Below are positions 1 through 56,350 of a DNA stretch of 64,000 nt, piece by piece. The translations under genes were made by a program, and so were the position numbers. Each line of letters starts with the position of its first letter. Position 1 is the first letter of the stretch. The notes under the pieces are model-generated. The model ran no database searches, was not told where the DNA came from, and saw only the letters and a list, made by a program, of their open reading frames with translations. Source of the stretch: Diaporthe sp. PMI_573 (Eukaryota; Ascomycota; Sordariomycetes; Diaporthales; Diaporthaceae); contig JAJTUP010000027.1 of assembly GCA_021399435.1 (NCBI GenBank), forward strand, positions 620,001 to 684,000, read 5' to 3'.

Positions 1-1344
1 CATCGGCGGTCCACCACTTCATTCCGCAGGAAATAGTTGACGTCCCGTCTGTACAGCTCGCAGCTGCCGCCCTCGCACTGGTGGTGAGCAGCGTCATGAT
101 GTTGTCCTTGACGCTGGGTACCAGCACCGCAGTTTTCCCCATCCACCTTGACAGGCTGCTCTTGAAGCTCGTCTGGTCCAAGTCGCACTCCGATGTGACT
201 TCACATTTCTGTTCATACATGACGCCCGTGGCGTTATTTGTCGGTGGGGAGAAGAAGGTCGCATTTGCCGCGGCCACCAGTCCAGCCACTCGCGATCCCC
301 AGATAACCTGCTGCTCCGGGAACCCCAGAGCTCCGTTGTATGCATACATGTTGGCAGCACCCATCATCTGCAGCATTCGGAATCAGCTATCAAAGGACCA
401 AGGGAGTAGTTTCGTACAAATCAGGGGAGAGAATAGATCACAATGTGGCCGTGGCCTGTTTCAGAGCCAGCAGTGTGACAAGTTCTTTGAGCCATATGCC
501 ACAGAGGGGAGAAGTTTCTTCTGGAGGGGGTTAAGATTGTATCCAGAAAGCTGCTTACATATGTGGCAACATTATAGCTCCACTGGTCCGCGGACATGCC
601 GGTGCAGTTGTCGGTACCCTCATCAGACGCGCCATCGAAGACATTGAACTGTGGCCCGACGAGCCCGACCGCGGCAGACCAGTCCCAGATCTTCGCGGCC
701 CACTCAGCGTAGGTCACATTGCCCGTATACCTGGCCAGCCTGGCCGAGGTTTGCAAGAACCCCCCGTTGGTCACAGCGTTCTTATAGAAGTAGCCGTTCG
801 CGGTCTTGGTGTACTGCCACTTCAGACCTCCACCGCATGTCGGGCTGTCAGCCTCCCACCTCCGGGCGAAGGCGTTGAAGGCATTCTCGGCGATGTTCAC
901 CCACGATGGAGCACCATCGACGGCTGTGAAATTGTACTCCATCGCAGTAAGCGCATTGTACACCCAGTACATCTGGTCGTCGTTGGCCTCCCAGCCTTGC
1001 TGCTCCGCTGGGGCGAAGTCGAAGTTTGAGCCGAGATTCTCGGATATGGCGGCCAGGAGAGCCGTCTGATACTGCGTGTCCTTGGTGTACACGGTGTAGT
1101 CCAACAGGCCGTTCCAGCCCGAGCCCGAGAGCCACCAGTACCAAGGCTGCGGTTGGTTAAAGTCCCCGGCTGTAGATGCGTTATTGTAATAATTTTTGAA
1201 CAGGCCCGAGGCGACCGTTGACGCGGCCGCGGAGATGGAGGCCGTGTCGGCGGTGTCAAGCTCGACCGCGAATGTCGAGCCCGCGAGCAACAGCGACATG
1301 GCAACTGCTGACGGGGAAGAAAAGAATGAAAGCCTCCGGCCCAT
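1..1344 (-). CDS. GH76 alpha-1,6-mannanase, DFG5/DCW1-like (3' end outside window)
   Basis: Secreted glycoside hydrolase family 76 protein. The family cleaves or transfers alpha-1,6-mannan, and Dfg5/Dcw1 members act in cell-wall assembly. Exon 1 is 1344..559 (262 codons) and exon 2 runs from 367 to beyond base 1; the 191-nt phase-0 intron 558..368 is introner copy A. The N terminus is hydrophobic (residues about 11-27), consistent with a signal peptide. The family catalytic Asp pair is seen as ANDDQMYW (D122, D123), with GGGLKWQ and DQWSYNVATY further on. Across the intron the reading continues SYNVATY-MMGAANMYAYN, then a run typical of GH76 (WGSRVAGL, KCEVTSECDLDQTSFKSSLSRW). Without splicing the frame would run into intron sequence and stop after 307 codons. 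A TATATA lies about 145 nt upstream. Any GPI signal would lie outside the window. Confidence 0.9.
368..558 (-). repeat. Introner-like element, copy A (intron in GH76 gene)
   Basis: A 191-nt phase-0 intron starting GTAAGCAGCTTTC and ending AATGCTGCAG. It is homologous end to end to the introns at 52600-52782, 56034-56220 and 5457-5645. Host exons flanking it read ...GCCACATAT and ATGATGGGT.... The branch site is a weakened CTGAT where the other copies have CTGAC. Exon reading on both sides fits GH76 without gap. Confidence 0.85.
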
Positions 1345-2578
1345 TTTGCGGAGTATGGTTCAAAGAATGAAAGAGTGAGTGAACGAATAAACGACAGTTA
1401 GGACACACAGGCAGCACACGCGAGGAAGAGAAGGGTGGAACCTCACCAACCTGCCCTCCTCACCAATGCGCAGCCTGCTGGCCAGCTATATACATGCAGC
1501 ACTGCCCATCCTGTGCATATTTCCCCGCTGATTTCCCACGCCTTGTTTCCAGGAACCAAGAAGCTAAAACAAAGATTGCCCCCCAAATGCTACCCTCCGC
1601 CCCGCGCGCGGGCGATCGACCACGGAGGTAAATTACTCGGTGTGGTGCCCAAAGTAGAAGCTGGAGACCGTCAGGGGCTCCGGGATTGGCCAATGGGGAG
1701 AATGCCCCAATCTAAATTAGGTTCTCGGTATGCTTAATACTAGTGCATACACAGTAGAAGTCTTCGCCTTGTTGGGGCCAGAGGCATGTGGTGACTACGC
1801 CGGAAGTGCTGTCTTATCTCGCATCATTATTAGCCGACAATGCTGTCGATTCTATGCTTTCACCGCCAAAGTCGATGACCTCTCGTCGCCGAGAGTGCGT
1901 GGCAGTTGTTTCCTGCAACGTGATTGCGCTGGTTAGCACCGGAATGACGGGGGCCAATGCGCAGAGCAAGCACCGTCCCCGGACTTCAGGGGTAAAAAAG
2001 TCATGGGATGGCACTCGTTGCTTGGCGACAGGCGACTCCTAGGCCAAGCTGGTTGTTTGAAACGTGCCCAAGAGAGCCTTTGAATCGTATATATGATTAT
2101 ACAAGAAACCAATTGGAAGGCATTTAGCAATGAAAATAGGAGTCGTTTGAGGCTGAGTTGATGTCTCTCCATTCATTGTTCGGTCGACATCAGCAGCCAC
2201 AGGAGAGACACCGTGGCACGGGACCTGCGATTCGAGGTCGGGAATCGTGAGGTCCATACTTGTGCTGGGGTGGCGCATGAAAGAACGAACATATAATGTT
2301 TGCGTATCATTTGGCGCGAACTCATGGATCTCGAGTTCGAAGCAGTCTGTTTGCCCATCGCACTGCAGGCACCGAGACGTGGTTGGGTGGACCCCAGGGT
2401 TATACCCTGAGTCTGGTCTGGCCTGGCTCGTGCGCTCCTACCAAACTCGGACGCGGAAGCAGTAAATTTCAGTGCTTCCCTTGGCTTTGAAAAGCGTCGT
2501 CACGCCCGCCCGCCGCCAACCTCATCACCGACTGCTGCCCTTTTGTGCATCGAATAGTATCTCCGGGGGCAGGAAAAC
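1345..2578. promoter_or_regulatory. Divergent intergenic region between GH76 and IPI3
   Basis: Shared upstream region of two divergent genes. TATATA at 1487-1492 is placed about 145 nt upstream of the minus-strand GH76 start and is the only clear core-promoter motif. No convincing coding sequence is seen; the short ORFs lack conserved features. Confidence 0.4.
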
Positions 2579-3963
2579 ATGTTGGCCGAGGAGTTCTTCT
2601 CGTCCATCAGTGGGCCGCCGTTGTCCAGCAACACGGCCATTGCTAAGGACGTTGGGATTTATACGCACTCTTTGTGGCCAACCTTCGCTGCAAAGTCGGC
2701 ATTCAAGAAGAGCTCAACTCCGCCAAACTGTCTTGCCGCAAACAAGACACACGTGTTTGCCGCCCAGCACGAGAAGGCTTATGTCCATGTCTACTCACGC
2801 CTTCGTGGCAATCAGGAGGCTTTTGTGGCTCTCCCCGAGAGGATAAGATGCTTGACGCTGGCCGGCGACGTTCTCATTCTGGGGACCGTCGAGGGCAGGA
2901 TCATGCTGTGGGAGGTAGGTTCTCTACGGTACAGCATTTACACAACAGCTTTGATCCACTTTGCTGACATTATCTGCAGACATGTACAGGTAGATTGGTG
3001 TCTCTGCCTCCCTGTCACGTCCAGGCCGTGTCCTGCGTGGTAGCTACGCCGTACCATCTCCTGACCGCCTCCGACGACTCCAACATCCATGTGTGGAGCC
3101 TCGCCCAGCTTCTGGAGCTTGACAGCAACGAGGAGCGTGAGCCTGTCGTCAGCTTCTCCAACCACAGAGGTGCCATAACCGCCATCGCAGCATCATCTGG
3201 CGACAGCGAAGAGACAAGCCTCTGCGTGTCCGCAAGCAAGGACAAGACGTGCATTGTCTGGAACTATCGGACTGGTGCAGTCCTCCGCACACTGTTGTTC
3301 CCTGCTTCGCCCCTGTGTGTTGCACTTGACCCCTACTCGAAAGGGGTTTTCGTGTCTGCAGATAATGGCTCCATTTTCTCTGTTGAGTTTTTCGGTCCAA
3401 AGCCGCTGCTGGGACTCAAGAGTGAGGAATCGTCTACTGTCGTGCAGGTCACATCGCCTTTTTGTGTTGCGCCATCAGAATCCGGGCCTGCGTCTTGTCT
3501 AGGATTAACCTACGATGGCACGGTTCTTCTGTCTGGGCATCCCAAGGGACAGATCCATGCGTGGAGCATAACCGACAAACAGGCAAGCAGTGGCGCAAAG
3601 GAGCTTACGAACTTGAACGCTGCCGTCACAAACATAATCTTGGACCCGCCGCTGTCGCGCGGCAGCAGGCCCACCAAAGCGTGGAATATTGTCAAACCGT
3701 CTCAAGTCCAGCGTGCGTACACAATTACCGCCCAGTTTGAGGCTGACCTCAGATCTGAGACGCGATTCCACGCAATGCTCAAAACGCCAGGTTTCTCGGA
3801 CGAGACTCTCGAAAGTGCCACATCTGCTTTTCTGCAGCCGGCAGACGAGAATCTCAGCGACCAAGTGTCGCGCGCCATGGACGAAGACTTGGAGATCTTC
3901 AGACAGCAAGATTCGTCGAGCAAAGATATGGTTTTTCGTTTGCCCTTTGCCAAGACCACGTAG
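2579..3963 (+). CDS. IPI3: WD40 pre-rRNA processing protein Ipi3 (Rix1 complex)
   Basis: Two exons, 2579..2914 and 2980..3963, joined in phase 0 across a 65-nt intron (GTAGGT...CTGCAG, branch GCTGAC); 439 aa. Ipi3 forms the Rix1 complex with Rix1 and Ipi1 in the nucleus, acting in 60S ribosome maturation and ITS2 processing. WD40 signatures are visible as SDDSNIHVWS, SKDKTCIVWN and GHPKGQIHAWSI, with the family-typical LWE-TCTGRL...HVQAVSC at the splice junction and a charged C-terminal tail (DEDLEIFRQQ). It is slightly shorter than the yeast protein, as is usual in filamentous fungi. The start is the first in-frame ATG after a purine-rich leader. Other WD40 proteins are possible, but the C-terminal region fits Ipi3 best. 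Confidence 0.88.
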
Positions 3964-4709
3964 GGCTCAAGATCTCAGCGGATTACCGGGATGCACCTCC
4001 GTTTCAGGTACGCGTTTGGGGCTTCTCTAGCCCTCCCGCTCCAGGGGTCCCGAGCTCCCGAGCTCCGTGTCGAACCCCACCCGCTCCCGGCACTCGGTGC
4101 CTCGAAATGGCTGCCCATTGGAAAGCTACCAAGGCAACCACCCAGGCCCTGGCCCGAACTTGGACATACAACTGGTCGATAACGGCTCGTGATTGCGCAT
4201 AAACCGGCCCACGCGGCAGAAACAGGACCTGTCCGTGCCCCAGTCACTCGCTGTCGTTGAATACAGACCTAGGCAGGCAGTCTGCAACGTGGGTGTGCCG
4301 GAAATGTTTGATGTACTCGACCCGGACGTCGACACAGCTGTGGCTGATGGCCTCATCCCGTCGATCATTGATCACATGTAAGCTTCCTTGGGAAGCTTGA
4401 CGAGTGGATCATCTGAATATTGGTTTCCAGGTGCGAGATGGCTCGACACGGGCCCCAGATTGCTGTAAACCAGGGATGTCGGGCGTCGTCTACCTTGTAG
4501 TTACGAGATTCGACACCGGTTCATAGTCGGAGAAGGGTCTAACATGGCTCGTGGAATACGGTTTCAGTCGTGGGCCGACCAGAGAGCCCCTGGACGGGGC
4601 ATCTCAGAACTGAGATGGGCCGACAGCAATATGAACCAAGATTCCCAAGAGCCTGCCAAACTTGCCCTCTCCTCCTCTTCTGGACTTTGGACGACCTGGT
4701 GTGGCCAAG
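3964..4709. other. IPI3-sedolisin intergenic region
   Basis: No supported gene. It holds a perfect 8-bp inverted repeat with a 3-nt loop (AAGCTTCC-TTG-GGAAGCTT, 4380-4398) and short GC-rich repeats (CCGAGCTC twice near 4050-4065). It presumably includes the IPI3 3' UTR and the sedolisin promoter. Confidence 0.4.
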
Positions 4710-6950
4710 ATGCGGTTCAGCGTCCTCACGAGCATACTGTCTGCCCTGGCGGCAGCAGTCGACGCGACCCCGCTGCGGCCGAGGACAATTAATCATGTTG
4801 TGCACGAGGAGAGATTGGCAGCGCGAAGCAGCTGGTCGAAGGCGCACCGCCTCCACGCCGCCGCGAACCTCCCAGTCCGGATAGGTCTTACACAGCAGAA
4901 CCTTCATCGAGCTGAGGATCTCGTATACGATGTATCCCACCCAGAGTCTCCCAACTACGGCAAGCACTGGTCGCCCGAGAAGATTATTTTCATGTTCAAG
5001 CCGAAACAGGAGGCCGTTGACTCGGTGTTGGAATGGCTACAGATGGAAGGAATCCATCCGAGTAGGATAAAGATGTCGGCATCCAAGAGCTGGATCACTT
5101 TCAACGCGACGGTACGAGAGATGGAACAGATGCTGAGGGCAGAGTACCACGTCTACAAGCACTCGACCGTGGCGAACACTCACCACATAGCTTGTGACAA
5201 GTATCACATACCCGAGCATCTGGTGGAGCATGTCGATTTCATAACGCCTACGGTACATTTTGATCAGCGCGTGGGACAGGGTCGGAAGAACAGACATGAG
5301 GACCTCCCGGAGAATGCCATTTCGGAGCTCAAGAAAAGGTCTGCAGAACTGCAAAAACGGCAGCGACCCGAGAAGGGCATTGTCGGCAAGCCCGACGACA
5401 GCAGCAACCCGAAGCAGGGTGCCTTCGTCGACAATGCCTTGATGGACCTGTCACAAGTAAGCAGCTTCTCGATACAATTTTAGCCCCTTCAAGAAGCAAG
5501 TTCTGCCAAATGTGGCCAGTGCCTCAAAGAACTTATCACACTACTGGTTTTGAGACAGGCTATGGCCACCTTGTGGCTCAGTCCTTAACTTATTGGCATG
5601 AAGCTACTTCTTTGTTTCGTTGACAGCTGACTCTGAATGCTGTAGTGCGATTCCATGATCACACCAGCCTGCCTGCGAGCTCTCTACGCAACGCCACCGG
5701 GCAGCCTGTCGGCCAGCAATAACACCCTTGGCATCGTTGAGTACACCCCACAGGCTTTTCTTCAGTCGGATTTAGATATGTACTTCAAAGAGTTCGAGCC
5801 TCAATTGAATGGGAAGTCGCCAATCGTGACGCTGCTCGACAACGGCGTCGTCCAAAACACGAATCAGAGCTTCCAATTCAACGGCGAGTCGGCGCTGGAT
5901 CTGGAATTCGCCATGGCCCTGATCTATCCGCAGCAGGCCACCTTGTACCAGGTCGGCGATCTCGTCCAGAGCGCAAGCTTCAACAACTTCCTGGACGGCA
6001 TCGACGGCAGCTACTGTCAGTTCGAGGGCGGGGACTCCAAGGATCCCAACATTGACGGCCAATATCCAGACCAAGTCAATTGCGGCACGACCAAACCCAC
6101 CAATGTATTATCCACTAGCTACGGCTTTAACGAGGCTGATCTGGGTATCAAATACGAGAAACGCCAATGTGATGAGTACATGAAGTTGGCACTGCAGGGT
6201 GTGACCGTTATTTACTCATCGGGCGACTCCGGAGTGGCAGGCAACGGAGACCAGTGCATTGATCCAGCCACCGGAGCATACAATAATGGGTCTAGCGGAA
6301 TGTTCAACCCATCCTTCCCCGGGGGCTGCCCGTGGGTGACGTCTGTCGGCGCAACTCAGATCCTGAACGGGTCGACTGTGAGGACCCCCGAGAGTGCTTG
6401 TGAGCGGGTTATCTTCTCTGGCGGGGGGTTCTCAAACGTCTTCGCGATGCCATCGTCCAGGAGAAGGCAATCGGCACCTACTTTGCCGAACACGCGCCGC
6501 CGTACGGCGCAGACCGTTTCAACAACTCGAAGGTGGTGAGGGGCTTCCCAGACGTCAGTGCGAACGGCGCCAACTATGTCACGGCTGTGAACGGTCGTTT
6601 CTCGCTGTCCTTTGGTACATCAGGTTAGTCCCATGTCTCCTGCCCTCCCTGTGACTGGTGATTAAAATCCTGGACTCACGCGAAAAAAAAAAAAAATAGC
6701 TTCCGCCCCCGTTTTTGCGTCAATAATCACCATGGTGAATGAGAAGCGCATCCAGGCCGGCAAGGGCCCTGTCGGATTCGTAAACCCAGCGCTGTACGCC
6801 AATCCGCAAGTCCTTAACGACGTGACTAACGGCAAAAACCCGGGCTGCGGGACGGACGGTTTCTCGGCTGTCCAGGGATGGGATCCGTTGACGGGGCTCG
6901 GGACGCCGAATTACCCACAGCTGGAGGCTTTATTCATGACTCTTCCCTGA
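4710..6950 (+). CDS. Secreted sedolisin / tripeptidyl peptidase (S53), with internal frame break
   Basis: Serine-carboxyl peptidase acting at acidic pH outside the cell. Exons: 4710..5456, 5646..6623 and 6700..6950. Start chosen at 4710 (MRFSVLTSILSALAAA, signal peptide) rather than an in-frame ATG 48 nt upstream. Residues about 30-180 are the pro-domain. Catalytic Glu and Asp lie in GESALDLEF (about E330 and D334), the oxyanion Asp in SSGDSGVAG (about D443), and the nucleophile in SFGTSASAP, rebuilt exactly across intron 2. Intron 1 (189 nt) is introner copy D. Intron 2 (76 nt) ends in a run of 14 A before TAG. Near 6447-6449 the frame shifts: FSNVFAM is followed, two bases out of frame, by AIVQEKAIGTYF and then the normal family sequence. 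No intron fits there. The locus is either inactivated by a small indel or carries a sequencing error. Confidence 0.85.
5457..5645 (+). repeat. Introner-like element, copy D (intron in sedolisin gene)
   Basis: A 189-nt phase-0 intron, GTAAGCAGCTTCT... to AATGCTGTAG, the most diverged of the four homologous introns but alignable along its whole length. It keeps the CTGACTCTGAATGCTG 3' block and the central TGTGGCC...TCAAAG / TTTGAG...GGCCAC inverted repeat. Exons join as LMDLSQ-CDSMITPACLRALY, the usual sedolisin sequence. Confidence 0.85.
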
Positions 6951-8112
6951 GAGCCAGGGTACTTTGATGTACGATAAACGTGAGCGGTTGCTTTAGTGGT
7001 AGACAGGCACAGACACATTGGGCTGGAGGGAGGCGGGTTTAATGTATAGATGCTCGGGCACCGGGGCATTAGAAGGAGCGAAGTTTCCAAGGAGTATACA
7101 TAGGTGTTTCTGGGGAATTCATTCAATCATTCCGTTTTATGTTGGACTTTTTGATCCTCAAGGTGCTGGGTCACGTTCCACCCCGCCTCGGATCCTTAAT
7201 CCTACCATGTCTGCGGACCTACCTGTTAGTATTTTTGTGACCTGTGATCATACCTTGTTACCCGATCGCGCACGTGGACTTGGGATTCCCGGCAATTGGA
7301 ACCAACTTATCATGGTGCACGCCCAATTGCTCTTTTCTCAAAGGCTTCGGGGTGTGCCCTGCGAGGGCTCCATGAATAGGGCCCAGGGGCGAGACTCCAA
7401 AGCCCCATGCAGCCCCAGTCTACCTCATAAGGCACCTGAATTAATATGATGACCTTGATGGACCAGACCTGATGTGGACGGTCTCCAGTTGCAGGAGTCA
7501 CAGCAGCAGTCGACCTGATGTTATTAGCAACAGTCTTCCGAGATCGAGGATCATGCAAAATGTGTGGAATGATCCCTTCACCCAAGGTGTTCGAGGCTTT
7601 ACGTGTTTGGGCCTTTTCGGGGGCCACAGAGGCGACATTGCGTGTCTCGTCTAGGTATGTATGCAACCGTCTGGCCAACTGGCTTGTGCGGCCATGTAAG
7701 CTGATGACAGGCGGCCAATGTTCGCGACCACCATTGTCTGCACCAATTGTTTACATCCTGACTGAATGTGATACAATCGGGCCTGGTCCAAGGTCCGAAC
7801 GGCCACATTCCTCCGACTCTGATGTCCCGCGAGCTTCGTTACACAATCTGGCTGAGGCCACTCCTGCGCAGCCCACGATAGAGACGGCCACCTCGGGGGG
7901 CCACGCAATATCTCAAACTGCTTTTATATCAATCGTTTGTACCCTATCATCTATTCGGAAAGAAAGCATACTTTTTGAACTTGATAATCAACATCACTCT
8001 CGTATCTGGACCCAGCATTCATCACAGTGGTGCCCTAGCATCCTCGCTATTCTATTCAACTAATCCGAATGCATTGTGGTCTAATTTGACACGCAAGGAT
8101 CTCTCAGCAGAA
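6951..8112. other. Intergenic region, nothing recognised
   Basis: About 1.2 kb between the sedolisin and the membrane-protein gene. Short ORFs on both strands show no conserved motif, signal or plausible splice-supported gene. Confidence 0.4.
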
Positions 8113-9099
8113 ATGGCCACTCCGAGCAACGAAGTGAAGAGCCCGAGCATGGTTCTCCAAAGTTAGTGTCCTCTGATTTGACGTGCAAGTATTTTCAGTG
8201 TCGCGTTTATAATACTTACTGTTTCTACAGCAAATGCCGCCGAGTGAGTGGCCATTCTCATCCCAGTAATCAACACATACTGACAAAGTTCTGTGATTTC
8301 TGAAGACTTTTCAAAAGACATAACCCAGCAGAAGCAGTCGTCGCTGGGAAGGCGAGAAAGAAGAAGGGGGCCATCACCGGTGTATTTGTGTTGTGGCCTC
8401 TGTCAGCATTGGTTTGTGCCTGTCTTCTCGTCCTATTCCCGCTCCCGGGAGCCGCTTCGCTGATATCCATGTGCCGACTCCAGCCCGGCAGGACCAAAGG
8501 CAGCCAGGAGCCACCGTTTGACCAGGTCGAGATTAACAATATCGGAAAATTATTCGAGCAGATCCGAAGACAGCCAAAAGACCTGGAGCCATTCAATTTC
8601 ATGGGCGAGAGTTATCGGCCGAAGGAAGAACAATGCGTGTCTCAAGAACCTCACATGCGCGGTGCAGTCTGCTTCAGCGGTTTGAAGTACAACGCGGAAG
8701 TAAGTCGACGTCTTATAACTGCCAAGCTTCTAATTTTCCTCGGCCCGCAGTATTCTTGTCCTCTTTGCATGTCTTTGTGAACCTATGCGATGAGATTCAG
8801 CCTCCTGTTGCCTCTGATTACTGGCAGCAGCCTCACGCCAATCGATTCTCGACAACTTCGCTCAGCACTTCTCCCTACTTGCTTGGTCCGTTTCACAGAT
8901 ATCACCAGAATCTGAAGCTGACATAGCTGTATAGACCAAGAAATGGAGGCAGGCGGTTTATGCGCTGATGACAGCCGACGGCTATGTTATCGTAGTGAAG
9001 ACCAAATCATTCAACGCGACGCGGGCGGCGGTAGAAGGCGGCAAAGTTCTGGCCCACAACGTACAGAATGCTGCAGTTAGGTATGCCGCAGGCCGCTAG
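8113..9099 (+). CDS. Hypothetical single-pass membrane protein, four exons
   Basis: Not recognised. Four exons, 8113..8161, 8231..8243, 8306..8699 and 8935..9099, keep one open frame of 206 aa. Exon 2 is only 13 nt. Introns begin GTTAGT, GTGAGT and GTAAGT and end CAG, AAG and TAG; the last (235 nt) has a branch-like GCTGACAT near its end. The protein has a short polar N terminus, a basic stretch (KARKKK, about residues 36-41) and one strong membrane segment (about 44-65, AITGVFVLWPLSALVCACLL). A soluble C-terminal half follows, containing DQVEINNIGKLFEQIRR, two separated cysteines and a final TADGYVIVVKTKSFNATRAA. The basic flank suggests that the N terminus is cytosolic. Gene structure is inferred from frame and splice signals only. 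Confidence 0.55.
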
Positions 9100-9535
9100 T
9101 GAGAAGATTAGTATCCGACTTGTTCGTTTTGGGGCGCATCTCTGAGTTTTAGCATGTGAGCCCGGACCATTAGGGGCTGGCATTGTGAGAATGCAGCAAC
9201 GCAAGTTCAAAGACCAGCTTGGAAGTGGCTGTGGGAAAATTCCATCATCCAATGTAGCCGCGAGACCGACAGCCCTGCAAACAAGGGACAGCAATGAATC
9301 CCAGTGAAGAGAACAGGTTGGAGCATTTGTGCGGGTTGATGCGACTCGCTGTCTTACACTGCAGGTGAATCCTCCGGATGGAGCCGGGGCTTACGGCCGC
9401 GGCGGACCGGGACTCCTCCCAGCTCCGCGCAAGCTTCCCATTTGTTCCACCAAGCCTGCCTAACGCCCGACCTCAAGCTGTGGTCCCCTCTCTCAAATCA
9501 GGGCAAAGACCACATCACAGAATCAACCGCACACC
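9100..9535. promoter_or_regulatory. Upstream region of the Zn2Cys6 gene
   Basis: Noncoding stretch between the membrane protein and the regulator. Pyrimidine-rich sequence (9430-9500) precedes the start codon, as is common in fungal leaders. No TATA box or other defined motif is evident. Confidence 0.35.
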
Positions 9536-11859: not shown

Positions 11860-12477
11860 AACTAGAATGAATCCTCCAAGGCTCAAGCCCAGGTGGATAC
11901 TGGTATGGACTGTGTTGTATTCTTTGAGTTCCTCTACTAAGCTGGAACGGCAATGAGTGTCCTATAAGGACAAGGAACAATGTGTCTTATCGACGATAAC
12001 AGTGAGATTCGCTATGCAAGGCTTTAAATAGTGACTTTCTAATCTTCTGTAAAACCAGTGTTCTGTTAGATGCTAATAGTCTATTCGTGCCGGCGCTGTT
12101 GACAAGCTCTCAACCCGTTCAGGTCGAAGCTATCGCGAGACACGAGCTAGTCTGATGCCGTTAAGCACCGTCAAAGTGCCTTCGCCATGTGACTCAGGCC
12201 TTCAAATTGCCCGAAATGGACTATAAAAGCCGCCCTGTCCTAGACTGAGGATCTGGATTGGTTTAAACGCACAACATCTACGACACTGAGGAGCATAGAC
12301 TTGTCCCTCAAGGCCATTCGAAAGCAATTGTTCGGCCTGTCGTGATTGCGAAACTGACATCACTATAATACAAGTCGACCTAGTATATACGTCTGAGACC
12401 CTGGTAAGTCAACCACGCGCCACTGCTTCAAACAAACAGCTGTGGATGCATAGTCTGACAGCCTTGCAGCCCCAGAA
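11860..12477. promoter_or_regulatory. Promoter-like region with TATA box and leader intron
   Basis: A strong TATAAAAG at 12222-12229 is followed about 180 nt later by a well-formed intron (12404-12469: GTAAGT, branch CTGAC, TTGCAG) that ends 8 nt before an ATG at 12478. This looks like the promoter and spliced 5' UTR of the small gene that follows. Confidence 0.45.
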
Positions 12478-24921: not shown

Positions 24922-24939
24922 GCAGATGCAGATGCAGAT
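24922..24939. repeat. GCAGAT tandem repeat (3 units)
   Basis: Three exact copies of a 6-bp unit in noncoding sequence. Confidence 0.8.
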
Positions 24940-26057: not shown

Positions 26058-26077
26058 GACCGACCGACCGACCGACC
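26058..26077. repeat. GACC microsatellite (5 units)
   Basis: Five exact GACC units in noncoding sequence. Confidence 0.85.
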
Positions 26078-31613: not shown

Positions 31614-31620
31614 TATAAAG
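31614..31620 (+). promoter_or_regulatory. TATA box of the 31.75-kb zinc-ribbon gene
   Basis: TATAAAG, 131 nt before the start codon, followed by a pyrimidine-rich leader. Confidence 0.45.
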
Positions 31621-31750
31621 GGTTCTACTGTTCTTCTCGGTTCTTGGTAATGATGGACTCAATACCATACCCAACATTGCCTACTTCACCTATTCAACTA
31701 CCATCTTCCAAAGCTTCAACGCTCCAACGACTCTCACATACTTGAGCACC

Positions 31751-44416: not shown

Positions 44417-44630
44417 GAAGGGCATCAGAGGCTGCTTATTGTAGCGTGATGTGTGGGCAGAGGGGGACATGATGAGTTCAGAAGACAAGACTGTCTGCAT
44501 TTTGGGAGTTTTATTTTCTCAGGCATAGAGCCCGCATTGCGACGGAGTTCTGACGCGTTATAGACAGTCCACAGTATACACAATCATGCCATCGCCTGTC
44601 TTCCAATGGGGTTGCTCCCGCCAAATATAT

Positions 44631-46512: not shown

Positions 46513-46962
46513 TCAGATCGCATCCTGTTCACTTTTCGTGCCGCTCCCTTCTCGCGGCCGTTCAATGCTCGCGCCCACAGGTTCCTCGCCCCAGGTCCAC
46601 AATTGAAGCTTGTCGGACTTGTCCTGAACATAGGCCCAGTCCTTCTCGTCCCACGAGCCCTGCATGTAGGCCGTCGCCATGCCCCCTACAGTCACACCCA
46701 GCACCAGGCAGTGATGGTTGGCACCGCTCGACACTGCTTTCCCATCTGGACTTGGGCCACTCGCTCCTGTACCGTGTCGCTGGCGCATCACCGAGAAGAT
46801 ACGACACACGCTGTTCGCCGCTGTGGTGCTTCCCAGAGCCATCTGGGCCGTCCATTTCAGTTTTGTCGGGATTCCGTCGTTGGGATAGTGTGTGCGCTCG
46901 TAACGCTCGTATGCCGGCACGCCGAAGACCAAAAGCGCAAAGACGGCATATGGCAGGTTCAT
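46513..46962 (-). CDS. Hypothetical small protein with two hydrophobic segments
   Basis: Single-exon ORF of 149 aa. The N terminus (MNLPYAVFALLVFGVPAYER) looks like a membrane anchor or signal. It is followed by HYPNDGIPTKLKW and a second hydrophobic stretch around residues 85-103 (CLVLGVTVGGMATAYM). The tail is acidic to polar (SWDEKDWAYVQDKSDKLQLW). Not recognised. The internal phrase HYPNDGIPTKL has a near match (HYHDGIPTNL) in a minus-strand ORF at 56.75-57.10 kb. Confidence 0.5.
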   Translation of the reverse strand: MNLPYAVFALLVFGVPAYERYERTHYPNDGIPTKLKWTAQMALGSTTAANSVCRIFSVMRQRHGTGASGPSPDGKAVSSGANHHCLVLGVTVGGMATAYMQGSWDEKDWAYVQDKSDKLQLWTWGEEPVGASIERPREGSGTKSEQDAI

Positions 46963-48695
46963 GATGTCTGTAATGTGTCGTCTGCCTTAGAAAGCGGGGC
47001 GGCCTCAGCTGCTCGTTGGGTTCCGTGACGGCTCTGTCGTCTGCGGCCTTTGCACGTCCAGGTGAACAAAGTTGAGCTGGCACAACTTGAACAGTCTGTT
47101 GTTGTGCTTGTATCGAACGAACACGACACGAGGATCTTCATCAAGACCCCTTGCCTGTGTCTGTTGCAACCTCAGTGTTTCAGGTTCCGAGCGCACTGGC
47201 GCACCACCACCACCATCGACCGCACGCAGTCGCACCTTGGCGGGTCTCTTGGCGATACCTCGCCAAACATGCGAGGTGCCAGGTTTCGCTCGCTATTCAT
47301 ACACGAAGCTCGAACCGGGTCGTAGGGCAAGACAAAATCGGGTGCGATTCCATTGACACGTCGCACAGAATGGCGACGCTCCCCGTTGGTGGGCTCGCAT
47401 GCCACATCTGCTGGCCGTGCAAGATCGGCATCTCACGTCAACGCACGACCCAAACAACAAATCGGTCTCAGCCCGTCAGGCCCGGCTCGTGAGATACAAG
47501 CAAGCTCTTGTGGGGCCAATATGACCAGAGCTCATTCACCACACGTTACACTACATGAATTGTTTGCAGGGCCTGCGATTCGGGATGAACCGAGTGCTGC
47601 AGGTGTCCGCCAAGAAGAAGATTTCGGCATACCGTCCTGCTGGGTCCCGGTCCACGCAGGGTCTCGCCGGGAGCCGGCCTTGCCACTTCCTCCCTGGACC
47701 TGCTCGTCCCGACCTGCTGGGTTGAATCGCAGATCTGCTACTGGGCCTCTCAGTTGTTATCGGCTTCAGCGATGTACAACGATGTACAGGTGTGTATGTG
47801 TAAGACTACTTACACACCGGCACATCATCGGGCAAATGGTAATCATGCGCCGGATTAGACCAAGGTTGTTCCACCAGGCTTCTGGAACGTCCTATCCCTA
47901 TCTTGAACACGGCCGTCGCCTGTCACAATTAAACGGGCGCTGAGGCAACACGGCGGTGGCCGACCAGTAGCCAGGCATGCTAAATCCAAGGTGATCAAAC
48001 CAAGCCATGCGTGCTGGGACTAGGTCCTGGGCGTTGTTGGATATGGAGGGGTTGGAGGGTTGATAATGCAACTGAGCAGCGGCCGCTATGGACGCACGGC
48101 ATCTATGTGGCCACTTATCGTCGCCAGCGCCACGGAAGGATCCAGGCCCCCAGCGGTCCGGAAAACTCTAGTCCTGGCAGCACCCACTTCGCCAAGCCAG
48201 ATAAGAGGTCGCTAATCCCCTCTGAGGAGCAAAGCCCTTTAACGCTCTTTACTAAATAAGCGTGTCAATCCCCCAGACAGGCATCGATACGCTGGACAAG
48301 GGAGATAAGGTCGGATATGGCGTTGATTGCCAAGCTCGAGGCTCATTGGAGCAGGCACTGATTGGGAAGCTGACCGTCAACCAAAATGCTGCACCTCGGC
48401 AAAATACAAAATCTCGAGGGGTGCCACTGTGACCCTTTGTCTTGCTGAGAGAGCATGCTTCAGGTTGCTCGGTACGATTCATACCGGCCTCCTTCTGTTT
48501 ACTGACCAGCAGTGTCGTCCCGTCGGAAGGAACAGTCGACAAAAAATCGTGCACCTTGGCGGTTCGTTCGACACGCCACTCACTCCACAGGAGCCGCCAC
48601 TGTCCCACAGACCGCGACCGGCGACGTGAAGAATTTGCCAGGACCTGCTCGCGTGAGCACTTCATCCGGTCCAGAGTCAACACTGAACGGCCAAA
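46963..48695. other. 1.7-kb region upstream of azgA
   Basis: No convincing gene; ORFs on both strands (for example 47353-47943) are compositionally random. It should contain promoters for the two flanking divergent genes. No specific motif recognised. Confidence 0.35.
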
Positions 48696-50596
48696 ATGGC
48701 TGAGGCACATGGCATCATGGAGAAAGTCAGGCACTGGCTTCGGCTCATTGGCCAAAGACTCTTCTTTACGCCCTGGCTGGTGAACTTCTCGCCACATATC
48801 ATCAACGATAGAGTCGCCAAGAGCGCTGTTGGGCGCTGGTTTCGACTCGATGGCAGCGGCCACAAGAAGACTCGGCGCGGATCCCGCTTCTTGACAGAGA
48901 TCCGCGCCGGGTTGGCGACCTTCTTCGCCATGGCTTATATCATCGCTGTCAACGCTAGTATCGTGGCGGATACCGGGGGCACATGCGTCTGCAACGGTGG
49001 CGCCGATGACCCAATATGTGAGAACAACACGGAGTACGCCTTGTGCTCAAACGAGATCAAGCGCGACCTGATCACCGCGACGGCTGCAATCGCTTCGTTA
49101 TCTTCCTTCTGTATGGGGTTGTTCGCCAACTTGTCAGTCATCTGCCATTGAAATACGCATATTCATAGTTACTAACGTGAAGCAGGCCCGTTGGTCTTGC
49201 TCCCGGGATGGGTCTCAATGCTTACTTCGCTTATACCGTTGTAGGCTACCATGGCACTGGAACCGTGCCATATTCGGTTGCTGTCACGGCCATCTTCGTC
49301 GAAGGCTGGATTTTCTTTGCTCTCGCACTTTTTGGCATGCGCCAGTGGCTTGCGAGAGCCATCCCCCGTTCCATCAAACTCGCCACATCTGTCGGTATCG
49401 GCCTCTTTCTTACCATTATCGGCCTGACGTACTCCGAGGGTATCGGTCTCATTGTCGGCGCAACGTCTACTCCAACTGAGCTCGCTGGCTGTATCGACAG
49501 CGCTCGTGATCCGACAACCGGACTGTGTCCTGGAAGCGCGAAAATGAGATCGCCCATGATGTGGATCGGTATCTTCTGCGGCGGTATCCTGACGAGTCTG
49601 CTGTTGATTTACCGTGTGAAGGGTGCGATTTTGTACGGCATCGTCCTGGTGTCAATCATCTCCTGGCCGCGTACCACTCCGGTCACATATTTCCCTTACA
49701 CAGAGATTGGTAACGACAACTTCGACTTTTTCAAGAAGGTCGTGGACTTCCACGAGATCTCCAGGGTTTTGAACGTGCAAGAGTGGAGCATCGGACAATA
49801 TGGTGGGCAGTTCGGCCTGGCCCTCATCACATTCCTCTACGTCGATATCCTCGACTGCACCGGTACCTTGTACTCCATGGCGCAATATGCCGACTTGATC
49901 GATCCCGTCACACAGGACTTTGAGGGCTCCACCATTGCTTACATGGTCGACTCGGTCGCCATTTCGATCGGCGCACTTCTCGGCACCCCTCCAGTGACTG
50001 CCTTCGTCGAATCTGGTGCTGGAATCGGAGAAGGTGGTAAGACAGGACTGACGGCCATGATGACCGGAATCTGCTTCTTCATCTCCGTCTTCTTCGCGCC
50101 CATCTTTGCATCCATCCCTCCGTGGGCCACAGGCTGCGTCCTGATCCTTGTCGGCTCGATGATGGCGCAGTCCGTCACGGAGATCAACTGGCGCTACCCT
50201 GGCGACAGCATCCCCGCTTTCGTCACCATTGCCCTGATGCCATTCACCTACTCCATCGCCGACGGCCTCATCGCTGGTGTGTGCACGTACATCGTGCTCA
50301 ACACCACGGTCTGGGTGGTAAAGAAGGTCAGTCGCGGGCGCATCGTCCCCCCGAACGAGGATGAGAAGGAGCCGTGGACGTATCGGATCCCCGGTGGCTT
50401 CCTGCCGCCCTGGATGAGGCGCTTGGCAAAAGGGGAGAAGAAGTTCTGGGTTGAGGATGATAGAGATGAGGTCGTTGGCCACGGCCAGGATAGCCAGCGC
50501 ACGAGCGGCAGCCTCGGCGAGCCCGAAGAGAAGACCGTCGGTGCTACGGCTGCGTCGAAGCCAATCAAAGAGGGTGGAGAGGAAAAGCTTCATTGA
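48696..50596 (+). CDS. azgA: AzgA-type purine (adenine/hypoxanthine/guanine) permease
   Basis: Plasma-membrane H+/purine symporter of the AzgA-like family, importing adenine, hypoxanthine and guanine. 615 aa from exons 48696..49132 and 49186..50596, joined in phase 2 across a 53-nt intron (GTCAGT, branch CTAAC, AAGCAG) so that the junction reads LFANLPVGLAPGMGLNAYFA. Further family blocks: TEIRAGLATFFAMAYIIAVN (first membrane segment), PRSIKLATSVGIGLFLTIIG, LYVDILDCTGTLYSMAQYAD, GALLGTPPVTAFVESGAGIG-EGGKTGLTA and INWRYPGDSIPAFVTIALMP. There are some 12 or more hydrophobic segments and a long hydrophilic C-terminal tail. An in-frame ATG 21 nt downstream is an alternative start. Confidence 0.93.
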
Positions 50597-51355
50597 AGGG
50601 CGATGTTGTCTTTAGCTTGTCTGGAAGGGCTGCATTTCCAGGAAGCTAGGTAATAGCCCCTCAAACTTTGCAACTGTTAGCCGCCATGAGAGGTCTATCG
50701 CTTCAGCTAGACCATTGGCGGAGGGAAATTGGATACACAATAATATGGAGATCAAAAGTCTCATGCATACAAATCAATGTGGTCCTGCAAGCACAAGGCA
50801 ACAGATGTTTCCAGTATTGTAGTGCACACCCATCAGGCCCCCCCCCCAAACTTCTCTTCTTCTCCCCAAGGCTTGTGACGGGCTTTTGATTCTCGGCGTT
50901 CTTCGGATCGGCTAAATCCTGAAGTACCGGCCAGCGTCGGAACTTAAACTCTGCTGTCAAGGGAAAATGGATGCACCCACGCCTCTGTAGCATGGTTGGG
51001 CCCTTTATATGATGCCTGACTGGATTTAATAGATAAACCAGGGACAGACTGCTTTGTTTTGATTCTTCCTAATGGTGTGACTTACCCCCAGTCTTGTGAT
51101 GCTAATGCCACAAATTTCTTTGTGTCTAGGTAGATCATGATCACATTGTGGGACTTTGAAATGAAGTGCGAGTCTTGAAGATATACCCACGCCTTGTCTA
51201 GAAGTGAGATGGAGCACTGGAATGCTTCCTGTAATTTGCGCAGTGAAGATATTTGACTGTCCAACGAACTCGAATCTAATGATTTGCAACCTGAAGACGA
51301 AACCATAATAAACAATATAACACAGTCTGGAAATAACAGTTGAAATAACAAATCT
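50597..51355. other. Convergent intergenic region
   Basis: 3' flanks of azgA and of the minus-strand gene at 51.36-53.19 kb. A C-rich run lies near 50839-50847. No gene seen. Confidence 0.4.
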
Positions 51356-53188
51356 TTATCCTCTCCCGAAAATACCAAGGAATTTTCCTCCATTTTTTTC
51401 TTTCTTCTGGTTGTCAGAAAACTTGTCCCTGTTTATTGTTTTTGCAGAGACTGAACTCGGAACCTGGTAGCTCGAGGGACCGGGATACGCATGGTAGTTG
51501 TTGCCATCATGCATGCCTAGGTGCTCTGGGACACTTCTCTGATAGTTCCTTCCTCCGTCGGTGTATTGCCTTGCGCTGTATAGTCCAGTTCTCTCGCTGA
51601 CAGTAGTGGTTTGGGGAACCTGACGTGGCCTTCCCGCCCCACTGGTCACATTGCGATTTTGTGTGTTGACGGCTGTTGCCCCTGAGTCTCCGTACCTGGT
51701 GGCCAAATTTGAACTTGGTTGTTTTCTTATCCTTCTTCCAGGACTCTTGGTCTCATCACGGCCGGGGAGAGTAATGTAGGTGTGGATGACAGTTGAGTTA
51801 GCGGCGTTGGAATGATTCGAGCTTGCTGTTGTGTATATGCTTGCGCCAGAACCTGGGTCATGGCGCATGCTCCGGTCATCAGGAATGAAACGACCGCTGG
51901 CTTGCTGCTGTCTGGTTCGGGATTCATCTTCGGAATGCGTCTTCTTTTTCGCACTTGTGATCGCTGGATTCCTCTCATATCCACCTGGAGTTTGCGTGTA
52001 GCTCCTTGCCGGTGAAATGTTGGTATTGATGTATCGATTTCCCAAGGCAGTTGGATGCTGACTGTTCTTTCCCCTCCTCTCGATGCTGGAATTATTGGAT
52101 TTTGCATTTTCGTCCACGCGTCGGTGATATGCTTGGGCATAACTGGGGAAAACATCCGGCCGTATTTTCTCCAAATTACCAGACGTTTCACCAGTACTGT
52201 GTCGGTACGAAAACAAAAGGAAACCAAGCAAAGCTCGCCGAAATTTCCGATTATCGGTGACCTCGGTAACGTACGCATAGGAAACGCTGTCATTCAGTCC
52301 TACGCCTCGGCATGGCGGAAGAACCAGAAGAACAAGCGCGTTCCAGTCGGACAGGGCAATAAAACGAGTCTTAAACTTACTGTGGTAATGTACTGCTTGC
52401 TGCAGCAAGGCACGAGTGTCTTCCGCACCCCGGACATTTCTCATGAACCTGTGCTCTGCATTGGACATCCATGCGGCGAACATTTTGGGGTCTTTAGGAA
52501 CTCCCCGATCAAAGTCTCCCCGTGCGCAGCGTTTCGAGACTGCCCCAAGCTTCTTGTATTCCAGGATAGCATATGCTCGACCGTTGTGGAAGTAGCCCAC
52601 TGCAGCATTCACAGTCAGCTATCAGAGAACCAAGGGGGTGGTTTTATACAAATAGGGGAAATGAAGGGCCACAGTGTGGTCATAGCCTATCTCAAACCAC
52701 CTGCGTAACAAGTCCTTTGAGGCCAGGCCACAGACGGGAGAGATTCCTTCTTGAAGGAAGATTGTATGTAAAAGCTGCTTACTATCAGCGCGTGAGGTTG
52801 TCCCCAGTGTAACCTCACTCCTTATATCACAGGCCCTGGAGTGATTTTGAGCCGCGTGTAAAGCAATGTGAACCGGGTTGTTGAGATAGATGGATGATCC
52901 GTATACGACGTCACCTTCGGAATCCATCCTCATATTTGGCTCCCAAGGCGCCAGGCGTATATTCTTTTGGTTAAGCTTCGATTTGTGTTTGTCGAGTGCA
53001 GCATCTGCGATGGCCAACCATTTGGATTCTGGTGTTTTGAGAAGAAAATTTGGGGGTTCGTATGCTTTCGTAGCGTTGGACGGAACGGAGACATGGACGT
53101 TTCCGTCTGGACCCCCCGTGACTTTCCGTCCGGACCCTACGTGATCTGGGTCCACCGCCTCTCGGAAAGATTCGTAGATAGTTGGCAT
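51356..53188 (-). CDS. Conserved fungal protein of unknown function carrying an introner
   Basis: 549 aa from exons 53188..52783 and 52599..51356; the 183-nt phase-1 intron is introner copy B. The junction reads TSRAD-M-GYFHNGRAYAILEYKK. The N-terminal half looks globular: EPPNFLLKTPESKWLAIADA, then AILEYKKLGAVSKR, KMFAAWMSNAEHRFM, LLQQAVHYHSKFKTRFIALS and RRALLGFLLFSYRHS. The pattern recalls uncharacterised fungal proteins in which a query of local data ('ILEYK...FIALSDW') precedes a disordered tail. The C-terminal 260 residues are disordered-looking, rich in Ser, Thr, Arg, Asn and Tyr, and end KEKNGGKFLGIFGRG. No catalytic motif, signal peptide or membrane segment is recognised. Without splicing, the exon-1 frame would read into the repeat. 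Confidence 0.72.
52600..52782 (-). repeat. Introner-like element, copy B
   Basis: A 183-nt phase-1 intron, GTAAGCAGCTTTTAC... to GAATGCTGCAG. By eye it differs from copy C by roughly two dozen substitutions and one 4-base gap. The central TGTGGCCTGG...CTCAAAGG / GGTTTGAG...GACCACA inverted repeat is present, and the branch is CTGAC. Confidence 0.87.
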
Positions 53189-54674
53189 GTTCCTTTGAGT
53201 TCAGAATACCCTGACTGAGTCTCGCAGAGATGCTGAAGTCGAGCAAATATCACAAAACAGGAACGGATTTTGGTCAGCACAGATCTGTCTGGAGTCTAGG
53301 ACGACCACAGCTAGAAAGCCCGGGGCGCCAAAGCGCTTATTTCAGCCTCTTCCAAGATGGTGTTGAGGGACGAAGTGACCGCGAAACAGCCCGCATAGCG
53401 CCAACAGACATACAGCCACAGATCAAAATAGAAACCCGCGCACCGGCCTGAGCGTGTGTCGTCCAACAAGTGTCAAGAACGGCCTCTGCAATTATTGAAA
53501 CCTAGGTGACCCAGCAGGCCGTCTCAGTTGATACTAGCGTAGTGGCCTGGTGGCCAATTGTACAAAACATTGCTCCTCCGGAAGTCGGGCTACCAGATAG
53601 AGATGGATCACAACCACAGCCCATTGATGGGGACACGGGATGTGGTGAGTATTCTACCTATGTAAATGGAGAGTATTCAAGTCGGTCAACGCATCATTCT
53701 GCCTCCGACATCAAGGTGTCAGACTTCAGGAAGCATGCACCCAAAGCAGGACCGAGTATCCTAAAATTGACTCGCATTCGACCCGTAGATGGGCAGATCT
53801 AGTCCGGAGGGAGGCCGGGGCCGGATGAGTGGCCGAGACCACCCACACAGGCGAAACTTTTAATGCGGTCAGCTTACGCCGAGAAAAGTCTTGGTTTGGG
53901 GCTGTTCAACGTCTGTGCTGTTAAACAAGAAGATCGCCAAGGCTGCTCCTAAAATGGGCAAGGTCACGGACAACGGTTCATTGTGAACATGCTACAATTT
54001 CTGGGCCACCACGTCGCAATGCAATTCGCTTCACCACCATGTGTGCTCAATCTCTTCTTAGTGCCACATGCAGGCATTCTGTTTCACATCATAGCGTTAG
54101 CGCTGTTGATGGGGCTGAAAACAGTTCCAACACTCCGGTTGTAATGCAGGCCATGCGGCTGAAGCCCGGGGGCGTAGTGCTACCACCTGTTTTAGACGAT
54201 TCGAGGCTGACAACTTCAGCTGCCATACTTCTAGTTGATCACTCGGGCCAGCAACACCTCATGGCCGCTCACACTCGGCATAACCGTGGGCTCACACCGC
54301 AAATTTCACAAGGACAGACTTCCGGTAGCATACGCGAGGACTCAAAGCCGTGCGACCTCAAACCGTTGCTGCCTTGCGCGCTTCACGCACAAGTCGCCAT
54401 GAAGCGACGTACGGTCCAGGCAGGGGGATACCTGTGTGTTGAGAATGACGAGTACTTCAAGACTGGGAACCTCAAGAGCTTAGATCCGATGACGCAAGAA
54501 AAGGAGTGGTTACTTGACCTGCCGGCGCTATTCGAAGATTACGCCCGACCAGGTGACGCACTCGACGCCAGCAGATTCTGGAATCAGGGTTGCAACCGAA
54601 GCAGGAAGCGGGGAGGAAAAGAGTTTTCAATGCGACTAAACGTATGCATCTATGTACTCTGTCACACTGTGTAG
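53189..54674 (+). pseudogene. Decayed coding sequence, unrecognised
   Basis: Three protein-like segments in succession: 53230-53448 (ending RIAPTDIQPQIKIETRAPA), 53506-53802 without ATG (GDTGCGEYSTYVNGEY..., DIKVSDFRKHAPKAGPSILK) and 54039-54674 (MRLKPGGVVLPPVLDDSRLT..., ILLVDHSGQQHLMAAHTRHN). The amino-acid texture is that of real protein, but stops interrupt them and no introns join them convincingly. The family is not identified, and a broken gene is the simplest reading. Confidence 0.25.
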
Positions 54675-55197
54675 ACTTGGCAAGCCAACCCGAATTCTAG
54701 CTCAGGGGTGTACTTGACTTTTTGAATCTTGTCACATTGACGTCAAGATGAAACCACCTCTACCATTCAAGTGCTACTGTGTAGAACATAACCATGATAA
54801 CCTGACTAGAATAAACCAAAATTACGAAACCATATCAATACAAGTAGGTATCTCAGAGTCGTGGCTGGTGACAGTTCCCAAAAGAGGATCGTATCCTACC
54901 AGGATAACACGCTGCCAAAGAAGCTCAGAGTAAATTCGACAATCAATAGCCAAGGGATGAGTGATAGATAATTAGAAACAGATCAATGACACCCGGACGG
55001 CATGATGCAACGGAGCAGTTTCGAGATTTGATAATCTGGAGAGGCGGAGATCGGCTGCGGCAGCATCGTTTGCCCGGTACGTAGTGATGGTTCGTGGTAA
55101 TACAGGAAGCAACGGAGTAGGTAGTGCGTGATAGAATCACGGGATTTGAGAGACGTTTGAACTTATGTGCATTTGTTCCAGATATAGCTACATGTAT
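54675..55197. other. Intergenic region, nothing recognised
   Basis: 3' flank of the sulfotransferase-like gene. No conserved ORF or repeat. Confidence 0.4.
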
Positions 55198-56350
55198 CTA
55201 TGATACCGCTGATTTCACGAACCCGAGGTCCTGGTTACTCAGAAACCGTGCTGCAGTGTGAGCCCCAACTGCTGTTGCTCCGATGATTCCCACCCACACC
55301 AATAGGCACCTTGCAAAAATCCCCTTGGCGACTTTCTCAGCTTCCTCGGAGTCATTCAGTCGTGGGAAAGGCTCCCTAGGTAATGGTCTATCCAAGAACT
55401 TGCAAAGCGGCTGCCATCCTTCGATAAGGTCCATGACCAGAAGCCGCTCGGGCGGCACAACTCGTTTGACCATTTCATTATGTACTTCAATCAGATCTGT
55501 TTGAATTATCATGTAGTTAGTTCAAATGGTACAAAAAAAGAAATTCGTTTGAGTAGTGAGCGAGACAAACCTAGACTCAGGGGCGTCCCCGGCCCACGGG
55601 CCTTGCCCATCTCCACTTTCGCAATCCTCTGCCAGTGAGCAGCGATGCTAGGAAACCACCGAAGCCCAGGCATCGGGGCTGTAAGGATCAGCAAGTACCA
55701 TGGGAATGCATACTTCAGGTTGCCACCGATGCTTGTCCACCACCTGTCCGGGTCCCGGGTGACGAGTACCACCTTCGCCTCCGGGTACAACTCGACGAGC
55801 TCGGGGATAAAGTCGAAGTTGGGCGTGTCGGTCAAGCCGACGAAGCCCGTGGTCAGTTCCCGCAGCAGCTTCATCGTTTTCTCCTTGTCACCGGCCTCCC
55901 GTGCTTCGTACGCGCGGACCCATTTCTTTGCAAATGCTGCACCCCGTCAGCCTCTCTTCTGCTACTTAAGTACCTAGCCATCGAATCGCGATGCACTCAC
56001 CATCCTCGCGCCATAGAATATGAGTTCCACCATCTGCAGCATTCAGAGTCAGTTATCAGAGGACCAAGGGAGTAGTGTCATATAAATAGGGGAAATAAAG
56101 GGCCATAGTGTGGCCATAGCCCATCTCAAACCACCTGCGTAACAAGTCCTTTGAGACTAGGCCACAGAGGGGAGGTGTTTCTTCTGGAAGGGGTTAAGAT
56201 TGCATCCAAAAGCTGCTTACGCATTACAGGTCCATCCAGGACCTTCTCGAGCGCCAGTTGCATGGATGTCGTTCCCGTCCTCGAATAGCCGGCGCCGATG
56301 ACCTGAAGCTGAGTCTCAGCATTGCCCGGCTTGGAGGGAACACCACCCAT
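55198..56350 (-). CDS. Sulfotransferase-like P-loop protein (PF17784 type) carrying an introner
   Basis: 275 aa from exons 56350..56221, 56033..56001, 55936..55571 and 55496..55198, all joins phase 1. Start set at MGGVPSKPGN, the usual N terminus; an upstream in-frame ATG at 56593 gives an atypical extension. The nucleotide-binding loop is VIGAGYSRTGTTSM (residues 18-30). Intron 1 (187 nt) is introner copy C and splits DGPVM-H-GGTHILWRED; exon 2 is only 33 nt. Then REDAFAKKWVRAYEARE-AGDKEK, LYPEAKVVLVTRDPDRWW (second motif) and VPPERLLVMDLIEGWQPLCK-FL. The C terminus has one membrane segment (about 247-265, LLVWVGIIGATAVGAH). The family binds PAPS-like nucleotides, but most fungal members have no known substrate. 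Confidence 0.88.
56034..56220 (-). repeat. Introner-like element, copy C
   Basis: A 187-nt phase-1 intron, GTAAGCAGCTTTTGG... to CTGACTCTGAATGCTGCAG. It carries the central inverted repeat TGTGGCCTAG-TCTCAAAGG / GGTTTGAGAT-GGCTATGGCCACA. It is the closest relative of copy B. Confidence 0.88.

Follow-up and report, generated by a model that had tools for sequence, protein, structure and literature searches.

Similar introns in four different genes of a Diaporthe contig

How did four introns that align with one another from end to end come to lie in four different genes within 64 kb of a single fungal contig? The question is raised by a stretch of 64,000 nucleotides (nt) of Diaporthe sp. PMI_573 (positions 620001-684000 of contig JAJTUP010000027.1, here C138; hereafter the window), drawn from an assembly of 83.7 Mb in 217 contigs (GCA_021399435.1). 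These introns belong to a family, designated F1, with copies throughout the genome. Based on the family copies, the reading frames joined upon their removal and the existence of paralogues lacking them, F1 is very likely a family of introner-like elements, which make new introns by insertion. The F1 features of the window are as follows, with ^ marking the insertion point and letters denoting the subfamilies introduced below:

368..558, - strand: F1 element of subfamily E (^AT targets); the only intron in a GH76 (alpha-1,6-mannanase-like) gene; junction ATY^MMG; site acatat^atgatg; phase 0
370..374, - strand: GH76 copy, near-terminal inverted repeat, 3' half (GCTGC), which stops 2 nt short of the terminal G
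550..554, - strand: 5' half (GCAGC) of the same repeat, starting at donor nt 5
5457..5645, + strand: F1 element of a chimeric subfamily (first ~100 nt subfamily C, last ~75 nt subfamily G/B); sedolisin gene; junction DLSQ^CDS; site tcacaa^tgcg; phase 0
52600..52782, - strand: D-like F1 element; hypothetical gene; site ctgata^tggg (A^TG); phase 1
56034..56220, - strand: F1 element of subfamily D; Sulfotransfer_4-type gene; site taatgc^atgg (^ATG); phase 1

A preliminary description of the window had placed the introns at 558-368 (-), 5457-5645 (+), 52782-52600 (-) and 56220-56034 (-), in sense orientation in four different genes, and these positions and orientations proved exact. The introns measure 191, 189, 183 and 187 nt, respectively, align end to end at pairwise identities of 72.5-85.6% (blastn E-values of 2e-23 to 1e-58 in the window), and all start with GTAAGCAGCTT and finish with GAATGCTG(C/T)AG. 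Among the internal blocks listed as shared, TGTGGC and ACTT fall in invariant columns, but GGCC does not, reading GACC in the copy at 52782. No fifth F1 copy was detected in the window at blastn E-values up to 0.1.

Removal of each intron had also been claimed to restore the reading of the host protein family. The GH76, sedolisin and sulfotransferase genes are indeed joined exactly, but for the hypothetical gene the outcome is an open frame over the junction, without a Pfam match. The cleanest case is provided by the GH76 gene, in which the F1 element is the only intron: without it the gene forms a single complete frame of 419 amino acids, which matches Pfam PF03663 (E 8e-110) and aligns to the solved mannosidase 6ry0 without gaps at the junction. 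At the sedolisin and sulfotransferase junctions the frame agrees with that of family relatives, the Pfam match of the sedolisin being limited to the part ahead of the junction. The sedolisin gene also displays a frame shift downstream of its F1 element (window ~6400-6470, + strand), representing either a pseudogene or a sequence error.

Copy number, distribution and age of F1

That the introns themselves had been copied was a conclusion which the preliminary description tied to the presence of further copies in the genome. At least 166 F1 copies were found across the 83.7 Mb, in many unrelated genes, with no match to the reversed-pattern control. This count derives from a search with the 25-nt 5' end allowing up to 3 mismatches (166 matches, 0 reversed controls), and is a lower bound because the pattern misses the GH76 copy itself. 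An end-to-end pattern requiring both ends to be exact yielded 70 matches and 0 reversed controls. Searching with the GH76 copy returned at least 42 matches (40 of 139 candidates scored), and queries from two other subfamilies identified additional places. For the analyses below we compiled 104 full-length copies, 102 of which have distinct flanks, from 99 loci (one being ribosomal DNA) and the window; the ~256 kb of sampled sequence lies almost wholly around known F1 copies, and any intergenic share drawn from it would be biased. Lengths are mostly 187-191 nt.

The occurrence of four copies in 64 kb had further been read as a sign of recent, genome-wide intron gain. Copies do occur genome-wide but very unevenly between contigs, and the window corresponds to a local cluster, holding 4 of the 70 end-to-end matches at ~75 times the genome mean. 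Contig C161 carries 9 such matches in 0.49 Mb and C138 carries 8 in 0.89 Mb, compared to 2 in 4.1 Mb of C1. End-to-end density differs more than 30-fold between C161 and C1, with C161, C138, C101 and C35 set apart from C1 and C112. Contig-end bias was ruled out as the cause of this unevenness (61 places on 11 contigs; Kolmogorov-Smirnov p 0.23). As for the gain being recent, this holds to a moderate degree only: among the 102 copies, median identity to the closest copy is 93% and the best pair reaches 96.8%, and ongoing activity is therefore not demonstrated.

Individual loci display further variation. Two short copies of ~129 nt (L051:3478-3605 and L074:891-1019) both lack approximately model positions 62-114, and possibly constitute a small internal-deletion subfamily. 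At L048, two co-directional copies (411-587 and 601-794) are separated by 13 nt. Three sets of loci on different contigs possess identical flanks (L045/L046 and L063; L020 and L059; L011 and L072), which are most simply explained as duplications after F1 insertion.

F1 copies as probable introns of genes

The proposal that the window introns are introner-like elements is supported across the sample, in which F1 copies look like introns of unrelated genes, with a similarity that reaches the splice border on either side. The borders of similarity coincide with a GT start in 97 and an AG end in 99 of the 102 copies, and the splice signals, comprising a GTAAGC donor, a CTGAC branch motif whose A is placed 16 nt from the 3' terminus, and a YAG acceptor, are kept at 91-100% (87 copies). 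After removal of the element, the best coding frame is identical on both sides at 82/102 sites, compared to ~34 expected by chance. Using a codon model trained on 63 sampled regions, from which the tested region was excluded each time, the sense coding score exceeded the antisense score at 98/102 sites. Furthermore, the open span over the joined junction has a median of 233 codons in sense versus 112 in antisense (87 sites), and neighbouring F1 copies are co-oriented in 19 of 20 pairs. The sole opposite-strand pair, L087:349-540 (-) and 1501-1688 (+), may represent two genes.

Of the open frames adjoining F1 copies, 62 span 110 codons or more; 40 of these were scanned against Pfam to characterize the hosts, namely the 42 longest without the GH76 locus and the second L063 frame. 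Matches at E-values up to 0.001 were obtained for 26 of the 40 flanking frames (one below the curated cut-off), and include transporters, glycosidases, dehydrogenases, a P-type ATPase, a pantothenate kinase, HET, a subtilase and others. From their sequence, F1 elements are predicted to be spliced out of transcripts.

Probable intron gain at sites empty in paralogues

Of the four window genes, GH76 and sedolisin were compared with their paralogues. The genome contains nine further GH76 loci whose alignment crosses the site (residue 262) free of stops and leaves no space for a 190-nt insert (C124, C24, C203, C163, C174, C173, C135, C46 and a short locus on C138), and two additional loci spanning the residue (C141 and C112) contain stops. 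Four loci (C163, C196, C141 and C135) read through the sedolisin site (residue 249), again free of stops. The intron-less paralogues at both sites argue against old introns, and we infer that F1 introns were gained by insertion.

Insertion sites and subfamilies

Insertion of F1 is seamless and biased towards ATG. No target duplication was found in 83 sites, with 2-nt matches numbering 4 compared to 4.8 expected, and matches of 3-9 nt numbering 0. The insertion point corresponds to A^TG in 39 and to ^ATG in 12 of the 102 sites (51/102 together), compared to a background of 959 ATG in 57507 (1.7%) in the flanks. Among exon bases at the junction, A occupies -1 in 50/102, and +1 is T in 57/102 and C in 1/102. 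Genome-wide, A precedes the exact 5' end in 22 of 45 cases, in agreement with the sample, with which the 45 partly overlap. A simple preference for Met codons was ruled out, as the targets occur in each of the three frames, Met codons being mildly in excess: the 40 ATG targets with a clear frame comprise 26 Met codons, 7 xAT Gxx and 7 xxA TGx, against a background of 450, 404 and 125, respectively.

Target choice follows the phylogeny of the elements. On a tree built from element sequence only, the four target classes require 32 changes, compared to a mean of 53.3 for shuffled labels (0/200 as low). Taken separately, class A^TG requires 18 changes (31.6 shuffled; 0/500 as low), class ^G 8 (18.6; 0/500), class ^AT 12 (16.0; 1/500) and the remaining class 20 (23.5; 16/500). 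Many inner branches of this tree are weakly supported (61/99 open). Groups B, C, E, F and G were picked from it by hand, and the shuffle test is independent of them. Group B consists of A^TG sites (10/10), E of ^AT sites (7/7), and G carries a G at +1 in 14/15 cases, while subfamily D is mixed in its target classes. In two members of group G (L076 and L089) a copy of a second family, F2, lies in the donor, so that the base at -1 is non-exonic and that at +1 exonic. The consensus sequences of B and G are identical over their first 19 nt and differ in their targets, and donor sequence alone therefore cannot set the target. Single element columns were also considered as an explanation of the ^G class, and the two consensus candidates failed by eye on its early branches.

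A natural chimera offers a view of which part of the element might matter. At the 48 columns distinguishing the consensus sequences of C and G, the sedolisin copy matches C in 30 of the initial 31 and G in 13 of the final 17 (of the remaining four in that last part, 1 agrees with C and 3 with neither), the switch falling inside a block common to both. The same chimera occurs in other genes at L060 and L064, with identities of 96.3-96.8% to the sedolisin copy or each other, indicating that the chimera itself was copied; an exact genome search for the join returned only the window copy, L060 and L064 each being one change off the pattern. All three chimera sites are A^T. Group C sites carry A at -1 in 9/13 and T at +1 in 10/13, compared to T at +1 in 0/15 sites of group G, and the chimera sites hence fit the parent of the 5' part, unlike G. 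This points to the 5' part of F1 as a putative target determinant. A speculative and rather improbable reading is that F1 picks its site through a determinant in its own ~100-nt 5' part, that subfamilies evolved different registers around ATG/TG, and that swapping the 5' part swaps the target. By analogy, and equally speculatively, F1 might then be a target-selecting mobile spliceosomal intron, resembling in this one respect the exon-binding sites of group II introns.

Near-terminal pairing of F1

The ends of F1 carry a potential pairing of GCAGC with GCUG(C/U), which starts at donor nt 5 and ends 2 nt short of the terminal G, with a weaker stretch beyond a mismatch after the first 5 bp. The 5-bp pairing is intact in 82 of the 96 copies with a GTAAG start, compared to 15 of 5100 trials with random internal 5-mers. 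Apart from this near-terminal stem, a conserved fold of the F1 interior was rejected, with 12 pairs, of which 2 showed a double change, at -2.7 kcal/mol (51 of 102 copies).

A second family, F2, and nested introns

Repeated phrases in the translations of F1 flanks led to the identification of F2, a second introner-like family unrelated to F1. Members are ~104 nt long, with a donor of GTCAGT, GTAAGC or GTTCGT, the core TTYATGTTTTGGAATGTTCYAGAAYGCA, of which there are at least 205 genome matches and 0 controls, and a CTAAC branch motif; the four copies folded form a strong hairpin (z -3.0 to -3.7). One copy lies in the window:

57652..57759, + strand: F2 copy of 108 nt (GTTCGT ... TATCAG); hairpin z -3.05; between the open stretches QENSELQDWLF and PHKVDYVHLCG

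The surrounding protein is presumably methyltransferase-like. Other copies were observed at L018, L022, L032, L050 and L089, among others. Both families occur in the same genes and differ in register, with 25 F2 sites showing T at -1 in 14/25, A^TG in 2/25 and AT^G in 4/25. The strand of F2 is that of the nearest F1 copy in 28/28 locus listings (25 distinct), and the window F2 copy, in a different gene, lies on the opposite strand to its nearest F1.

Two loci possess F2 within an F1 donor: between G and TAAGC at L089:1381-1644, a nest of the [D1,2] kind, and between GT and AAGC at L076:1501-1790, of the [D2,3] kind. These stwintron-like arrangements would most simply result from one introner having landed in another. 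By exact pattern search the [D1,2] form is restricted to L089, and F1 as a family is not a [D1,2] stwintron, as a G precedes the donor in only 21/102 copies. No further repeat family common to at least 3 loci at 50-400 nt was found in the same sample. Window positions 11904-12071 and L093:585-754 have ~170 nt in common at 92% identity, the loci being otherwise different.

How F1 may be copied

A route through RNA fits the copying of F1 best and appears reasonably probable, as exact intron ends, genic sense sites and the lack of duplication are its predictions. F1 elements bring all splice signals with them (GTAAGC donor, CTGAC branch motif and YAG acceptor) and very likely spread by inserting into exons in sense and exactly at their splice-site ends, such that each insertion makes a new intron and leaves the protein unaltered. 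On the RNA route, the moving form would be the excised intron RNA, which may reverse splice into another transcript or into single-stranded DNA, to be followed by reverse transcription and recombination. The near-terminal stem GCAGC/GCUGC might help by bringing the ends together, and the sequence of the subfamily, probably that of its 5' part, would shift the target register. In the portion of the literature considered here, the introners of ascomycetes are collectively described as lacking terminal inverted repeats (TIRs) and target site duplications (TSDs) (PMC9860276).

Alternatively, F1 might be a non-autonomous DNA element moving without target duplication, by strand transfer or in the manner of Helitrons, which inserts at A^T and whose ends happen to be splice sites, unspliced copies being removed by selection. 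The short near-terminal inverted repeat GCAGC/GCTG(C/T), paired over 5 bp in 82/96 copies, is what such an element could carry, and the sharp target with its subfamily differences is what different transposase or guide specificities would give; most non-ascomycete introner families look DNA-based (PMC9860276). We nevertheless regard this alternative as rather doubtful. None of the 83 sites shows a target duplication, GT (97/102) and AG (99/102) lie exactly at the border of similarity, and copies are mostly genic and in sense, though intergenic ones would be neutral. Helitron-type ends have the form TC...CTRR. Such ends were not seen, as judged by eye only, nor was a larger autonomous relative, for which no dedicated search was made. 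Explanations that begin with older introns fare considerably worse. That such introns were overwritten from each other by gene conversion is very improbable: the chimera at 5457-5645 and its two sister loci do attest to exchange between copies, but the GH76 and sedolisin paralogues lack an intron at the site, conversion of introns would not be expected to yield a flanking-exon motif that tracks the subfamily, and similarity ends at the splice sites in nearly all 102 copies. Hardly credible at all is a repeat inserted within existing introns, common as intronic repeats are, given that similarity spans the first to the last intron base and so leaves no remnant of an older intron at the examined sites.

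Several observations weigh against our reading of F1 as introner-like elements that move through RNA and select their targets. The paralogues on which intron gain relies are distant (best GH76 44%, best sedolisin 56%), and the sense coding score is not positive in 16/102 sites, such that a minority of copies may lie in untranslated regions, pseudogenes or non-genes. Sequences other than A^TG and ^ATG make up half of the 102 sites, spliceosomal reverse splicing by itself leaves the differing target choice of B and G unexplained, and the chimera argument rests on three copies. With regard to structure, the near-terminal stem comprises just 5 bp and a weaker part and is almost invariant, thus providing no covariation signal; folding of the interior is not conserved (51 of 102 copies), and two window copies fold no better than shuffled sequences (z -1.3 and -0.6).

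Comparison with known introner systems

The comparisons that follow draw on parts of the cited papers and extend as far as those parts do. Open-licence literature yielded no paper on introners in Diaporthales or stwintrons in Diaporthe, and F1 may be among the families listed in a survey of 3,325 genomes (PMC9860276). Like F1, the introner-like elements of Dothideomycetes (Fulvia, Dothistroma and Passalora; PMC4457414) are near-identical introns in unrelated genes of an ascomycete host, several of them in one gene, and lie at new positions, as those of F1 probably do. The host of F1 belongs to the Sordariomycetes (Diaporthales), an affiliation to which its ITS region (L075) points as well. The ascomycete introners of the survey share with F1 the lack of TSDs and a genic bias (PMC9860276). 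Its ascomycete families are reported to lack TIRs, while F1 possesses a short near-terminal repeat below the 6-nt limit of the survey, and the insertion bias reported is for GC-rich motifs rather than a subfamily-specific ATG register. Algal introners of the type of miniature inverted-repeat transposable elements (Micromonas and Aureococcus, as related in PMC9860276) likewise produce new introns from short-repeat insertion, but carry TSDs and TIRs, in contrast to F1, which lacks TSDs.

The sister stwintrons of Xylariales (PMC12403724, PMC8469720, PMC9024468) resemble F1 in their length of ~185 nt and in being seamless and without target duplication. Furthermore, their NTIRE-10 repeat occupies the same place as that of F1, beginning at donor nt 5 and stopping 2 nt short of the terminal G, with the 3' half between branch site and acceptor, but GCAGC/GCTGC of F1 and GUAUAAAAAC of Xylariales differ in sequence and length (PMC12403724). 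F1 is a single canonical intron, whereas the Xylariales elements are twin; F2 is hairpin-like, as are the symmetrical introns of Xylariales. Also, F1 sites are strongly biased, whereas Xylariales sites are reported as seemingly random (PMC8469720, PMC9024468). How fungal introners move is unsettled; in the papers considered here they leave no duplication, and their sites are described as unbiased or only GC-rich. The sharp, subfamily-dependent target of F1, its natural chimera and the F2 copies nested in F1 donors open the way to direct tests of which part sets the target and whether the moving form is RNA or DNA, and subfamily target preferences such as these provide a handle on how new introns arise.

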